This document shows positions 44,130-49,986 of a stretch of DNA of 64,000 nt, one piece after another (position 1 is the stretch's first letter; each line of letters begins with the position of its first letter). The notes under the pieces are model-generated. The model saw nothing but the letters and a program-made list of their open reading frames with translations. It ran no database searches and was not told the DNA's origin. Source of the stretch: Sphingomonas brevis (lineage in GTDB: Bacteria > Pseudomonadota > Alphaproteobacteria > Sphingomonadales > Sphingomonadaceae). Position numbers and translations under genes: made by a program. The stretch lies in contig NZ_JAMGBB010000001.1 in assembly GCF_023516505.1 (NCBI RefSeq), forward strand, positions 1,674,001 to 1,738,000, given 5' to 3'.

Positions 44130-44924
44130 TCATTCCGCGCAGCGCGTGGTTGCACCTTTCAATTCTGAAACCAGGCTGCTCACCCGGGCCGGCGAATAAT
44201 CTGATTGCGCCGCCGCGCTGACAATCGCCGAGCCGCAGATAACACCCGCCGCGCCGGCCTTCAGCGCAGCACGAACATGGGCTGGCTCAGAAATGCCGAA
44301 GCCAAATATCGGTGGCGGCGCGTCCGCCGCCTTCAGCCGCAGGATCAACTCTGCATCGAATTCACCTACCGAGTGAGTGCCGGTGATCCCCGCCCGGCTG
44401 ACGCAATAGGTGTAAGCCTTGCTCATTGCGGCGATGCGCCTGAGCGCCGCTTCCGGTGTGTTGGCCGCCGCGATCAGCACCGGTTCGAGCCCGGCCTGCT
44501 CCGCCCGCCGCGCGAATGGCTCCGCCTCGATCGCCGGGACGTCGGCGATCAGCAGGCTATCCGCCCCGGCTTTCGCCGCTTCATGCATGAAGCCACGTCC
44601 CGGCATGACCAGATTGGCATAGGTCAAAATCCCGACCGGGACGTCCTGGTGGCGAATCCGGAAATCGGCGATGAGTCCAAGGCAGTCAGCAACCCTGGCT
44701 CCCGCCGCCAGCGCCCGCTGCGCCGCGGCCTGGATCACCGGCCCGTCGGCCACGGGGTCCGAAAAGGGAATGCCCACCTCAATCATGTCGGCCCCGCCTT
44801 CGACGGCGGCATCGAGCAGCGCGGCGCTCGTGGCAAGATCCGGATCGCCGAGCACCAGAAACGCACCGAAGGCGGCATCGCCCTGCGCGGCCAATCGCTC
44901 GAACATGCTGGCATAGCGGCTCAT
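44130..44924 (-). CDS. trpA: Tryptophan synthase alpha chain
   Basis: A 264-residue TIM-barrel lyase that releases indole from indoleglycerol phosphate to TrpB. Catalytic Glu is in [16 protein letters not shown] and Asp in [28 protein letters not shown] and [15 protein letters not shown] are conserved phosphate-binding parts. The ATG overlaps the trpB stop. Last gene of the trp operon here. Confidence 0.96.
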
Positions 44925-46096
44925 TGCCGCTTCCCCAGCAGAGCCTCGGCCTGAATGACGTCTTTGTCTCCCCTGCCCGAAAGACTGACGACGATGATGG
45001 AATTGTCTTCGGCCGTCTCCGCCAGTTGCATTGCATGCGCGACCGCGTGGCAGGATTCGAATGCGGCGATAATCCCTTCACTTTGCGCCAGGCTTGCGAA
45101 GGCGGCGATCGCCTGCCGATCTTCGATCCCGACATAGCGGGCGCGCCCGCACTCCTTGAGAAAGGCGTGCTCCGGACCGACCGCCGGATAGTCGAGCCCG
45201 GCGGAGACGGACCAGCTATCCCGGACCTGGCCCTCCTCATCCTGAAGCAAGAAGGTCTCGGCGCCATGCAGAATGCCTGGCGAACCCCGCAACAGGGTGG
45301 CGCCATGGTCAGTACCATCCAGCCCTCGGCCGGCCGCCTCGACGCCGATAAGCTCGACAGCGGCGTCCTCGACGAAGTCCGCGAAGATACCGATCGCGTT
45401 CGACCCGCCGCCGACGCAGGCCACCACCGTGTCCGGCAAACGCCCCTCGGCACGCAGAATCTGCGCCCGGGCCTCCGTACCGATTACTCGCTGGAATTGG
45501 CGGACCATCAGCGGAAACGGATGCGGGCCAGCGGCCGTGCCCAAGAGATAATGGGTGTCGGCAAAGCTGGCGCTCCAGTCGCGCAGGGCCTCGTTGATCG
45601 CATCCTTAAGGGTGCGACCGCCGCTCATCACCGGCACGACCTCAGCGCCCATCAACTCCATGCGGAAGACGTTGTGGCGTTGCCGCTCGACGTCCTCGGC
45701 GCCCATATAAATTCGGGTTTCAAAGCCGAACAGCGCGCCGGCGATCGCGGTTGCGACGCCATGCTGCCCGGCCCCGGTTTCGGCAATCAGGCGGCGCTTC
45801 CCCATCCGTTTTGCAAGCAGGGCCTGGCCGAGCACCTGATTGGTCTTATGGGCTCCGCCGTGCAGTAAATCCTCACGCTTTAAATAGATTCGCGCCTTCC
45901 CGCGGGTAAGGTTGCGGCACGGCGTCAACGGGGTTGGCCTGCCTGCATAGGTGGAGAGGAGCTCGTCGAGTTCCGCGCGAAAGCCCGGGTCTTGTTCGGC
46001 GTCAAGGAACGCGGCCTCGAGCTGCTCAAGGGCAGGAACGAGAATCTCGGGAACGAAGCAGCCGCCGAAGCGGCCGAAGCGGCCATCCATCAACAT
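44921..46096 (-). CDS. trpB: Tryptophan synthase beta chain
   Basis: A 391-residue PLP enzyme joining indole and serine. The Schiff-base Lys is in [17 protein letters not shown], the glycine loop in [12 protein letters not shown], and [12 protein letters not shown] and [10 protein letters not shown] are typical. The length is usual. It overlaps trpCF upstream and trpA downstream, so the complex subunits are made together. Confidence 0.97.
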
Positions 46097-47460
46097 TGCA
46101 GGCTTCCTCGGCTTGGCAGGCGAAGCTCTTCGAACAGGGCCCGCAGTTTGGCAGGGTCTTTCCGGCCGGGCGTGGCTTCCACGGAAGAGCAGAGATCGAC
46201 CCCATAAGTCCCGACGCGTTGGGCGGCGCGAGCATTGGCCGGCCCGATTCCACCGGCAAGAAAGCCGTTAGGAAGATCGGGGTGAGCTGCAATCAGATCC
46301 CAGTCAAAAGCCTTTCCGGTACCGCCGGCTCGACCGGCGAGCCTGGTATCGAACAGCGTTCGATCGGCTCCGGTCGGCGTGGGCTCGACCACATCGTCGA
46401 CACCCGAGACCGCCCAAATCTCGCAGTTGGCGGCAAACCCCTTGCGCAGCTGCTTGAGGTCGTGGCGGCCGTGCAGCTGCACGGCCCGCAGCGCATGTTC
46501 GCTTGCAATACGCACAATCTCGGCAGCGGTTACGTCGCCAAATACGCCAACCGGAAGGACACCTCGCTCGCGCGCAATTGCCGCTAGCCCGGCGGCCTCT
46601 TCGCCGACGCGCCTCGGGCTTCCATCGACGAAGACGAAGCCGGCGTGAGTCGCACCGGCCGCGGCAGCGGCCGCGACATCGGCGCTCCTGGTCAGGCCGC
46701 AGATCTTGACCGGTCCGAACACCAGCGCACGGGCGGCCTGGGCGATGTCGCTCGATGCCATCAACGAGGATCCGACCAGATAGGCATCCACCTTTTCCGA
46801 GAGCCGTTCGACGTCGCGCCGCGAACGGATACCGGATTCGCTGACGACGATGCGATCCTCAGGAACAAGGCCTGCCAGCCGCTCGGTCACGGCCAAGTCG
46901 GTTTCCAGGGTCCGGAGATCGCGGTTGTTGATGCCGATGATCCTGGCATCAAGCGCGATCGCACGTTGCAATTCCGCCCGGTCATGAACCTCGACAATCA
47001 CATCCATGCCGAGCCGCCGCGCTTCGGAAATCACGTCGGCCGCTTCATCGTCGTTCAGCGCGGCGAGGATTGCCAACACGGCGTCCGCGCCGTGCGCGCG
47101 GGCTTCGGTGACCTGTTTCGCATCGATAACGAAGTCCTTCGCCAGGATCGGCCCGGCGAAACCAGCTCGAACAGCCCTCAGATCGTCGAGCGATCCTGAG
47201 AAATAGGGCTCGTCGGTCAGCACGCTGATCGCGTCCGCCACGGGTGCGTAGGCGGCGGCCGCCTCGGCCACTCCGACATTGCCGCGGTGGCCGGAAGGCG
47301 ATGCCTTCTTCACTTCCATGATGAAGCGCGCGCCTCGGCGGGCAAGAGCCGATCGCAGGCTCTTTCGTGTCGGCTCGGGGTCGAGCGTTACGCCTTGGAG
47401 CCGAGCGCTGACATCCTGCCGCTTGCGGCGAACGATCCCGTCGAGGACGCATTCAGCCAC
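46090..47460 (-). CDS. trpCF: Fused indole-3-glycerol-phosphate synthase / phosphoribosylanthranilate isomerase
   Basis: A 456-residue two-domain protein. Residues 1-245 are TrpC ([50 protein letters not shown]). After the short ARALVFGP linker, residues 250-450 are TrpF ([12 protein letters not shown] with catalytic Cys, [22 protein letters not shown] with Asp, [11 protein letters not shown]). A GTG at 47460 overlaps the trpD stop and fits the TrpC start; ATG 47481 is in frame. Fusion is usual in enterics, unusual for an alphaproteobacterium. Confidence 0.93.
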
Positions 47461-48523
47461 GGGTCGCCTCAATATAGGCATCGAGCACGTTGCCGGCGCG
47501 TCCGGATAGCAGCTCCTCGCGCGCAAATTCCGCTCCGTCGCGCAAGCTCGATGCCCTTCCGGCAGCCAGCAGCAGGACGGCGGTGTTCAGGATGGTAATA
47601 TCCTGCTCCGCGGCGCTGCCGCCACCGTCCAGCAACGATCGCAGGCGCGCGGCATTCTCCGCCACGTCGCCGCCGGTCACGACGCTGAGCGGTGCCCGCT
47701 GAAGGCCAGCATCTTCGGGCGCAATCAGTATTTCGGCAAATTCGCCGTTCGACAGGCGAATTGCCCGGGTCTCGGCATGCAGTGCGACTTCATCCAGTCC
47801 CGAACCATGGACAACGAGCGCCTCGTCGACGCCCATCGCATCGAGCGTTTGCGCGATCCGCCGCAACATCCTTGGATCGGCCACGCCGAGCAACTGGACC
47901 GACGGTCTCGCCGGATTGATGCATGGGCCGAGCAAGTTCATCACCGTGCGCACATGCAATTGACGCCTCACCAGCGCCGCATGCTTCATTCCCGGATGAT
48001 AGGCTGGCGCGAACAGGAAACAGAATCCGGTCTGGTCCAGCGCCCTTCGGGCGGTTGTCGGATCGACGTCGATTCTCGCACCGACCGCTTCAAGCACGTC
48101 GGCCGAACCACATCGCGAACTGACGCTGCGATTGCCATGCTTGGCGACCGGCAAGCCGCAGGCCGCGGCGACGAATGCGACGGCGGTCGAAACGTTGATC
48201 AGTCCCGAACTGTCGCCGCCAGTGCCGCAGCAATCCGCGAACTGATAGTCCGGCCGGTCGAATGGCAGCGCCGCCGCGAACAGCCCGCGTGCGGCACCGA
48301 TCATTTCCTCGGCAGTTTCGCCCTTCATCCTGAGCGCGATCAGCATGCCCGCGATCTCGGCCGGCTCGAGTCTGCCGAGCACCAGCCGCTCGAACAGATG
48401 CTCTGAATCGTCGGCCGGAAGATCCTCGCCCGCCAGCAGGCGCGGCAGCGGGTTCGGCACCGGGCCGGTGTCGGCGACGGGGTGACGGCTGGGCGGAGCC
48501 GTCAAATGGGCTTGGGTCAACAT
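47453..48523 (-). CDS. trpD: Anthranilate phosphoribosyltransferase
   Basis: A 356-residue enzyme transferring phosphoribose to anthranilate. Conserved CGTGGDSSGLINVSTA binds PRPP, KHGNRSVSSRCGSADVLEA is the anthranilate region, and LFAPAYHPGMKHAALVRR is typical. The N-terminal 25 residues are an extension with Pro and Ala. ATG follows GAGAGGA by six bases. First structural gene after the attenuator. No trpE or trpG is in the window. Confidence 0.95.
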   Translation of the reverse strand: MLTQAHLTAPPSRHPVADTGPVPNPLPRLLAGEDLPADDSEHLFERLVLGRLEPAEIAGMLIALRMKGETAEEMIGAARGLFAAALPFDRPDYQFADCCGTGGDSSGLINVSTAVAFVAAACGLPVAKHGNRSVSSRCGSADVLEAVGARIDVDPTTARRALDQTGFCFLFAPAYHPGMKHAALVRRQLHVRTVMNLLGPCINPARPSVQLLGVADPRMLRRIAQTLDAMGVDEALVVHGSGLDEVALHAETRAIRLSNGEFAEILIAPEDAGLQRAPLSVVTGGDVAENAARLRSLLDGGGSAAEQDITILNTAVLLLAAGRASSLRDGAEFAREELLSGRAGNVLDAYIEATRG

Positions 48524-48540
48524 GGGAAAATCCTCTCGGC

Positions 48541-48567
48541 AAAGAAAAACCCGCCAAAAAGGCGGGT
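48541..48567 (-). terminator. trp attenuator terminator
   Basis: On the minus strand ACCCGCC, loop TTTTT, GGCGGGT, then TTTTCTTT: an intrinsic terminator 18 bases before the trpD start codon and 38 bases after the trpL stop. Placement between a Trp-rich leader and the operon is that of an attenuator. Confidence 0.88.
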
Positions 48568-48605
48568 CGAAGGTCGGTCAGTAAGTGTCGATGCAGTCGA
48601 TCAGC

Positions 48606-48737
48606 TCACCAGCCGCGCCATCGCGCCGCGAGGTTCATTTCACGCCACCAAAGCCAAGCCGAACCCGCAGCGGCGGGCTGGAAATGATTGGCGAGGGCGC
48701 GAAATTCCGTCACGCCCCAAGCCTCGTTCTTGCCCAT
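48606..48737 (-). CDS. trpL: trp leader peptide
   Basis: A 43-residue frame from ATG 48737; GTG 48713, behind a GAGG site, may be the real start and gives 35 residues. The C-terminus SAWLWWREMNLAARWRGW has five Trp codons in the last 16 residues, one more at residue 7, far above chance. The stop is followed by a 38-base spacer and a hairpin with T-run, then trpD. Ribosome stalling at Trp codons would prevent the terminator from forming when Trp-tRNA is low. This is a classic transcription-attenuation leader. Confidence 0.85.
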   Translation of the reverse strand: MGKNEAWGVTEFRALANHFQPAAAGSAWLWWREMNLAARWRGW

Positions 48738-48786
48738 CCAATTGTCAAGAAGCACGGCAATGGCAGCGTTTTATCCTTGAATGATT

Positions 48787-48840: not shown

Positions 48841-49242
48841 CTATCGCGCAGCGATGCGGATCGCGGCCGCTGGGATGGCGCTGTAGCCGTTGAGCGCTAT
48901 CTCATTGGCCCTGGCAACCGCCTGGGCGATCTGCGGATTGGCGTTATTCCATGCGCCCTGTGCGCAGTTGTAATAGGCACCGTCCTGCAACGCCGCCCGA
49001 TTTTCATAGAGGCAGACGTCCCTGACGGCACCGGCGACACGGGATTTCAACAACCCGGCATCACGCGATTGGGCCAGGTTGAGATCGGCATAGCTGACAT
49101 GGGCTGTGCGGATATTTTCCTGGGGTTCGGCATAGACCACCACCGGTTTTTCCTGGGCGGCCGATACCGGCATGGCGAATGCAAGAGATGCCGCGACCCC
49201 TGACAAAACGGCTGCGGTAACAGTGTTAAAGCGGGTAAGCAT
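48841..49242 (-). CDS. UrcA-family secreted protein
   Basis: A 133-residue protein starting MLTRFNTVTAAV with a signal peptide to about residue 28. The UrcA motif is VSYADLNLAQSRDAGLLKSR followed by VAGAVRDVC, with a second Cys in YYNCAQGA. Family function is unknown; it is abundant in sphingomonads and Caulobacter-like bacteria. A second copy lies 211 bases upstream. Confidence 0.85.
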   Translation of the reverse strand: MLTRFNTVTAAVLSGVAASLAFAMPVSAAQEKPVVVYAEPQENIRTAHVSYADLNLAQSRDAGLLKSRVAGAVRDVCLYENRAALQDGAYYNCAQGAWNNANPQIAQAVARANEIALNGYSAIPAAAIRIAAR

Positions 49243-49453
49243 CTCGTCTTCTCCCTCATTACGGTCACGAAGAGGTGACCGGGAGATGCCCTTAGGATCG
49301 ATTGATTGCACCCGCGCTTCGATGGCGTTGCAGGGGGATTTCGGCGGGGGCTGTTCGTCGCTGCCAAGCGCCTTGATATTTCGACCGGTGGCCGGACGGT
49401 CGCATCGGTTTCGTCACATTTGCGTTCCGTCCGGCTGGTTCAACTCGGCTCGC

Positions 49454-49798
49454 TCAACGGCCATAGGCCAGTCGCGACGCCTGCACATAGGCCCGCGTAA
49501 TTTGCGGCCGTGCCCCGCCCCAGGCCCGGTCGGCGCACATATGATAATCCTTGGCGAGATTGTCTTTCCCCTGGAAATCGCAGACCTGGCGCACGGCTCG
49601 CTCGACGCGCTCGTCCAAGATCTTGCGATGGGCGATGATGTTCAAATTGAGGTCGCGATAGGACACCATCCGCATCTGCGACCCTTGCGGAAGGCCGCGG
49701 ACAACCACTTCATGATCTTGCGCGATGGCGGGGGCGATCGGGATGGCTAGCGAGGCAGCCATCATCGCCGCAGTGACTCGAATAAGATGAACCGACAT
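49454..49798 (-). CDS. UrcA-family secreted protein
   Basis: A 114-residue UrcA protein. ATG follows AAGGGAGA. Signal peptide about 1-26 (ending PAIAQDH). Motif VSYRDLNLNIIAHRKILDER and VRQVC, with second Cys in YHMCADRAWGG. A paralogue of the downstream protein, with shared RPQITRA/NPQIAQA ends. Role unknown. Confidence 0.85.
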   Translation of the reverse strand: MSVHLIRVTAAMMAASLAIPIAPAIAQDHEVVVRGLPQGSQMRMVSYRDLNLNIIAHRKILDERVERAVRQVCDFQGKDNLAKDYHMCADRAWGGARPQITRAYVQASRLAYGR

Positions 49799-49986
49799 GG
49801 GTAGGTCTCCCTTTCCTTCGCCGCTCGGATGGGAGAGCTGGACGCCAGCAACTGGCCTGTCGCCGGCAAGTGCTCGCGGCGACGCCGTGAGCGCCGGTAC
49901 TATCGGCGCGCTCAAGGATGGTCTCTCCATCCGCGCCTACAACGTTTCGCGGGGCGCGATGTTCAGATTATCAGCTAAACCGGCCG

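Follow-up and report, generated by a model that had tools for sequence, protein, structure and literature searches.

The window, i.e., the whole 64,000-nucleotide stretch of Sphingomonas brevis DNA subjected to analysis, carries on its minus strand four genes of tryptophan biosynthesis: trpD for anthranilate phosphoribosyltransferase (47453-48523; PF00591, 296 bits; TIGR01245, 380.5 bits), a trpCF fusion (46090-47526; PF00218 and PF00697), trpB (44921-46096; PF00291, named by its size and its place in the operon), and trpA (44130-44924; PF00290, 236 bits). The trpD start at 48523 is preceded by GAGAGGA (48531-48537), spotted by eye as the likely ribosome binding site of this gene, and farther up by the terminator hairpin ACCCGCC-TTTTT-GGCGGGT (48549-48567), found by terminator scan and in the sequence itself, whose arms are designated below as strands 3 and 4, with a U-rich tail at 48541-48549; in the hairpin, its tail, and their place before trpD the sequence matches what a previous sequence-only reading of the locus had described. 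Upstream of the hairpin lies a leader frame of 35 codons (VTEFRALANHFQPAAAGSAWLWWREMNLAARWRGW) followed by UGA (48606-48713), which opens with GTG, is predicted to be leaderless and ends with SAWLWWREMNLAARWRGW directly before the stop at 48606. Three of its five UGG codons (48654-48656, 48648-48650, and 48645-48647) form the first cluster W-L-W-W (48645-48656), proposed as the stall site, and the other two (48618-48620 and 48609-48611) fall within strand 2, GCGGCGCGATGGCGCGGCTGG (48609-48629), which encodes AARWRGW and is mostly near-invariant in 28 leaders of one alignment (A1). With 5 tryptophans in 35 residues against 4 in 1489 across the four downstream trp proteins, the richness of the leader in this residue is more than chance. 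The frame remains open farther up, to ATG 48737 and GTG 48755, and the earlier count of 43 codons was taken from the former; the Trp-rich minus-strand frame and the terminator before trpD thus stand as described, with the frame now counted from GTG 48713. Beyond the leader, two small minus-strand frames (48841-49311 and 49454-49930) look alike and have signal-like starts; no Pfam family was found for either, and we take them to resemble UrcA-type proteins.

Using the window's trpD as a query, matches were obtained in 67 of 71 genomes of its own genus (g1) and in 22 of 26 genomes of a sister genus (g54), and 87 trpD loci from 86 genomes of both genera were compared. A Trp-rich leader of the same layout is present upstream at 81 of them, mostly close before trpD and in some cases about 3.2 kb up, before aroF-trpE-trpG (aroF encoding DAHP synthase; PF00793, 271.7 bits). 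Of the remaining six, one is a contig end; the other five have trpG directly next to trpD and a short flank, and in four of these a leader turned up farther upstream, ahead of aroF-trpE. A search for the same leader before trpD in relatives had been suggested together with the initial proposal, which named missing conservation of Trp codons or terminator as the outcome that would speak against it; both turned out to be conserved. Every feature is present in 78 of the 81 leaders: the terminator pattern has no match in two (L085 and L110), and TTGAC is absent in one (L071). The Trp cluster and the C-terminal end (AARWRGW, AARWRWR, AARWRD, HRW, and similar) are kept in most leaders, the first half of the peptide is variable over the whole set, and its length ranges from 19 to 52 codons. 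Rather similar peptide starts, MTxLxAIAA in many, were seen in 19 leaders ending with RWRD or alike. The leader of G322 has a worn look and no clear terminator. A close trpD also occurs in several named records, among them those of Sphingomonas arenae, Sphingomonas edaphi, and a Sphingomicrobium MAG; S. arenae SYSU D00720 carries trpE at another place, and in S. edaphi DAC4 trpE was not found. Some individual arrangements were also registered: in G337 (L175, G337:C83), the leader stands between trpG and trpD, in the order trpE C-terminal tail, trpG, leader, trpD; in G361 (L154), aroF-trpE-trpG and trpA-trpB-trpCF-trpD face each other, each with its own leader; and in G053 (L151), aroF-trpE and trpD are placed back to back, again with a leader each.

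The window genome (2.59 Mb, 99.99% complete) keeps trpD to trpA, and TrpE was not detected in it. It encodes a single chorismate-binding protein versus two in the trpE-bearing G077 and G274; in one model this protein exceeds the PabB cut-off, and it falls far short of the TrpE cut-offs, and the TrpE of G077 used as a query matches in the window genome only PabB, with 34% over half the length. A search for the N-terminal domain of TrpE (Anth_synt_I_N) was dropped as evidence of absence, since it missed the TrpE of G077 too; this protein barely passes the model (24.1 bits at a cut-off of 23), which makes the search too insensitive. It had been remarked at the outset that such leaders in rhizobia usually sit before trpE(G), and this also holds for relatives with the complete operon, where the leader precedes aroF-trpE-trpG, the window genome being one without detectable trpE. 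Across the genus TrpE is present in 36 of 71 genomes, in 13 of them in one run with trpD (with the leader before aroF-trpE in 12 of the 13) and in the remaining ones elsewhere, often with its own leader. No TrpE match was obtained in the other 35 genomes of the 71, some of which are incomplete, and in 25 of the 53 of good quality. Kynureninase is encoded in the window genome (TIGR01814, 262.9 bits at a cut-off of 246.4), and in the genus it matches in 29 of 35 TrpE-less versus 4 of 36 TrpE-bearing genomes (Fisher p 6e-10, a value inflated by relatedness), or 20 of 25 versus 1 of 28 if only those of good quality are considered; matches were counted from 195 bits, weaker ones in G344 and G345 and a fragment in G350 being left out. 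A test with independent pairs on the TrpD tree (67 rows) offered six well-supported pairs, too few for adequate power, with kynureninase changing as expected in a mean of 1.9 of them and in the opposite sense in none (median p 0.5). Among the 9 of 26 sister-genus genomes searched, kynureninase occurs in 6 of 6 TrpE-bearing and 2 of 3 TrpE-less ones.

A covariance model built from 58 of the 78 leaders detects two of them in the window genome, the one before trpD with 95.8 bits and a second with 80.7 bits, on the minus strand at G000:C1:1918198-1918332 (L222:8199-8333). The latter is followed by a C-terminal remnant of trpA and then by genes for a permease of the TauE/SafE type and a 2OG-Fe(II) oxygenase, the kynureninase gene being in divergent orientation. 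In the nearest relative, G342, kynureninase is divergent to an uninterrupted series of leader, trpD, trpCF, trpB, trpA, permease, and oxygenase. The simplest reading of these two gene orders is that the operon once resided at the kynU locus and was copied to its place in the window, the trp genes having probably been lost at the old site.

The ability of the leader RNA to switch between alternative structures was assessed mainly with a model in which folding was confined to RNA downstream of the ribosome; for the stalled state the ribosome was set at the last codon of the first cluster and covered 12 nt beyond it. The mean probability of strand 3 pairing was 0.81 with the ribosome at the Trp cluster versus 0.17 with the ribosome at the stop codon, and the stalled state exceeded the stop state in 76 of 78 leaders, the exceptions being L005 (G145) and L090 (G324). 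Dinucleotide shuffling of the stretch from the ribosome to strand 3 gave a difference of 0.07 versus 0.64 observed, and 81 of 1560 shuffles reached the observed one. For the window leader the values are 0.62, which is below the mean, and 0.06, its difference being reached by 1 of 20 shuffles; here CCGC of strand 3 (48562-48565) pairs in the stalled-ribosome fold with GCGG (48626-48629). The gap between the Trp cluster and the strand 2 motif amounts to 11-17 nt in 66 of 78 leaders, roughly a ribosome's reach. The other model, masking the footprint and allowing pairing across the ribosome, yielded little contrast (means of 0.59 at the first Trp codon, 0.45 at the stop, and 0.50 with no ribosome). 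In the equilibrium fold of the full RNA of the window, the terminator forms in every state (0.99-1.00), and over the 78 leaders in the stalled state it reaches at least 0.9 in 48 and stays below 0.5 in 25; since the terminator wins at equilibrium, capture of strand 3 by an antiterminator must be kinetic. GCGG-CCGC is the consensus pairing in the sister genus, and GCG-CGC together with GGU-ACC in 28 leaders of g1, with no covariation: in two consensus folds, made for aligned groups of 28 and 20 of the 78 leaders, compensatory changes were found for 0 of 10 pairs (6 of them between strands 2 and 3) and 0 of 5. A test for mutually exclusive 1:2, 2:3, and 3:4 stems had been proposed from the sequence, and of these the terminator and, in one model, the stall-dependent contrast for strands 2 and 3 were recovered, the 1:2 stem not being seen for the window. 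Without a ribosome strand 3 is mostly free, the state expected from a 1:2 stem, in 15 of 19 RWRD-type leaders and in 20 of 59 others; in the window it is then mostly paired (0.58), with no classical 1:2 stem. Tentatively, CGCGCCCTCGC (48691-48701), noticed by eye, may be regarded as strand 1, complementing 48614-48624 with one mismatch, a pairing to which the window folds give no support.

Where the leader transcript and its translation begin is suggested by the upstream sequence. TTGACA at 48743-48748 has the properties of a -35 element and is followed after 17 nt by GAGGCT (48720-48725), a weak -10-like hexamer assigned by position, with 6 bases separating it from GTG 48713; the consensus promoter scan of the window scored no sigma-70 promoter. 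Of the 81 leaders, 80 have TTGAC at a distance of 29-34 nt upstream of the start codon, a spacing partly dependent on the selection of leaders, which made use of TTGA[CT] 24-34 nt upstream, all of them falling at 29-34; the 120 nt preceding each of the 78 full leaders contain only two other TTGAC in total. This arrangement points to a leaderless message, the start in the window being presumably GTG 48713 and not ATG 48737. It might alternatively be supposed that the transcript begins farther upstream and the leader is translated by ordinary initiation from ATG 48737, with 43 codons, or from GTG 48755, as the frame is open to there and ATG is a start commoner than GTG. We find this improbable, because with TTGACA at its place ATG 48737 falls inside the promoter spacer, ahead of the -10 position, because the frame of G342 opens merely one codon before the equivalent GTG, and because a Shine-Dalgarno-like word precedes the start in just 6 of 80 leaders.

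The nature of the unit itself may be interpreted differently as well. The most serious competitor, in our opinion unlikely, assumes that the main action is in trans, exerted by the peptide or by the leader RNA released on termination (about 170 nt), as with rnTrpL and peTrpL of Sinorhizobium meliloti, cis attenuation serving only to produce the RNA. In that system, rnTrpL also starts at the leader ATG and acts in trans on trpDC mRNA (PMC7298713), and the similar peptide starts of the 19 RWRD-type leaders could stem from conservation of either the peptide or an RNA strand 1; against this stand the variability of the first peptide half and of the length over the complete set, and the fact that the features kept throughout are those fitting cis folding. 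Still less credible, and in fact very improbable, is the idea that what stands before trpD is a relic in decay, the operon having been moved here and having become dispensable with the loss of trpE: the missing TrpE and the second leader with its trpA remnant at the kynU locus, where G342 has the whole operon, are compatible with it, but all four trp frames and the leader of the window are open, and the trpD leader scores higher in the covariance model than the second copy. As to fortuitous Trp codons beside an ordinary terminator of the upstream gene, the terminator scan does predict that 0.8 hairpins of this kind would arise by chance over a region as long as this one; the occurrence of the leader before trpD or aroF-trpE in two genera refutes this explanation, leaving it a practically negligible probability.

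The reading we prefer, and consider very probable, is that of a ribosome-mediated transcription attenuator through which the availability of charged tRNA-Trp determines how strongly trpD-trpCF-trpB-trpA is expressed. In this scheme we infer the promoter, the start site, stalling, and termination itself. Transcription would start at or next to GTG 48713, and the leader would be translated from a leaderless message. When Trp-tRNA runs short, the ribosome would stall at W-L-W-W with its front edge halted just short of strand 2, and the free strand 2 would capture strand 3 (48561-48567) as polymerase makes it, precluding the terminator. If Trp-tRNA is ample, the ribosome would reach the stop codon and cover strand 2, strands 3 and 4 would pair, and transcription would end near 48541. 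Stalling attenuation of this operon had been put forward from the beginning, and the idea is well supported by conservation, which extends to the leader, its spacing, and the terminator, as well as by one of the two folding models, its start codon and peptide length having required revision. As TrpE was not detected, trpD is the first encoded pathway step seen and hence a natural control point.

Apart from trp genes, the leader was encountered before functionally different partners. It directly precedes the permease also in G197, G330, G326, and G340, and TonB receptors in G307, G346, G348, and G333 (L237, L238, L239, and L244, that of G333 being worn), relatives lacking a match to TrpE; the TonB-dependent receptor is followed by an amidohydrolase in L237 and L239. 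G313, whose trp operon is still complete, has a leader (L241:1233-1374) about 100 nt before a FadL/OmpP1-like porin. The leader was also found before trpG alone in G362, before aroF in G356, and before aroF-trpE-trpG in G044 of a further genus (g45). Among 14 further copies tested, TTGAC lies 29-32 nt before a start in 9, and 12 of the 13 amenable to folding show the stalled state above the stop state; TTGAC is not in place for the permease leader of G340 and the trpG leader of G362, and the TonB-receptor leader of G333 has no stop codon at the expected position. At an E-value of 0.01, the covariance model has matches in 33 genomes of the family, out of 298 when those of the two genera are counted in, and in 14 of 289 genomes of the class, weak hits beyond those inspected, as well as G565, being left out of the counts. 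Nine hits outside the expected places were inspected, and seven look like chance. G329:C1:74728 and G313:C1:2131554 proved to be a tRNA-like stretch with a hairpin, and G129 (inside a long frame), L226, and L228-L232 were rejected on inspection. In G658, from another alphaproteobacterial family, a Trp-rich leader with a terminator stands before trpD (L227:8979-9126), and the contrast between stalled and stop states failed for it (0.47 vs. 0.54); G565 of the same genus also matches the model.

These copies lead to a broader proposal, which we regard as possible while leaning somewhat against it, namely, that in this genus duplications of the leaderless Trp attenuator have given rise to a small regulon dependent on Trp-tRNA supply and embracing aroF-trpEG, trpDCFBA, the TauE/SafE permease with the 2OG-Fe(II) oxygenase, TonB receptors, and the FadL-like porin. 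In the many members without anthranilate synthase, the window genome among them, the attenuator would govern salvage: kynureninase would make anthranilate from scavenged kynurenine, trpDCFBA would rebuild Trp from it, and the permease and receptors would import the precursor or Trp. Nine genomes, four of them less than 90% complete, have a leader ahead of the permease or of a TonB receptor, and TrpE was found in none of the nine. The permease family is represented in 19 of 35 TrpE-less versus 2 of 36 TrpE-bearing genomes of the genus, counts that mix two genomic settings because some matches are adjacent to cytochrome bc1-like genes and have no leader. This applies to at least six of them (L250 and L252-L256, with Pfam confirmation for L252), which lie beside Rieske and cytochrome b genes with neither leader nor oxygenase. 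Against the salvage reading count G312 and G334, which are TrpE-less and have kynureninase but no trpD match, and G145, G317, G321, and G352, where TrpE is missing and trpD is kept with no kynureninase; the latter enzyme may simply serve Trp breakdown. Trp codons in the copies suggest what genes of unknown substrate respond to, and in this sense the copies give substrate predictions for the TauE/SafE permease and TonB receptors, and a kynurenine-to-Trp route in free-living soil bacteria is suggested as well. Overall, one attenuator design becomes traceable over about 80 species as the operon splits, loses trpE, and moves.

The type of control considered here is already known. The Trp_leader family of Rfam (RF00513) works via Trp codons, mutually exclusive hairpins, and a terminator; the window leader shares with it the Trp codons and the terminator and scores 18.9 bits, under the gathering score of 41. 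The Rfam scan of 18 loci with these leaders returned no family except tRNA, and the leader family is absent from Rfam. Attenuators of proteobacteria were reportedly surveyed by Vitreschak and colleagues. Among the open-access papers listed for Trp attenuation in Sphingomonadaceae and their relatives, or in connection with TonB or kynureninase, no such description was found. uORFC-13-1, considered as a possible lead, was discarded, being of Acholeplasma origin and unrelated (PMC8632094). The closest counterpart within Alphaproteobacteria is trpL/rnTrpL of S. meliloti, which has a leaderless frame starting at ATG with adjacent Trp codons and then a terminator, located before trpE(G), the sole attenuated one of three trp operons, and encoding a peptide of 14 residues (PMC7298713). 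The window leader resembles it as a Trp leader followed by a terminator and predicted, from a fitting promoter spacing, to be leaderless too, and differs in its position before trpD instead of trpE(G), in its 35 residues, and in that many g1 genomes have two copies, some before uptake genes. Action in trans is known for rnTrpL. Another parallel is provided by Chlamydia caviae, C. felis, and C. pecorum, where anthranilate synthase is missing, kynureninase is present and fills this gap, and the rest of the pathway is kept, the partial operon being headed by trpR and having kynU inside (PMC3937554). Like C. caviae as portrayed there, the window genome has kynureninase and trpD to trpA and lacks a TrpE match; unlike the chlamydial case so described, a Trp attenuator is found in place of trpR, and kynU stands beside the operon (G342) or beside the leader with the trpA remnant (window genome). 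The salvage regulon, if true, would represent a free-living counterpart of the C. caviae cycle controlled by attenuation.
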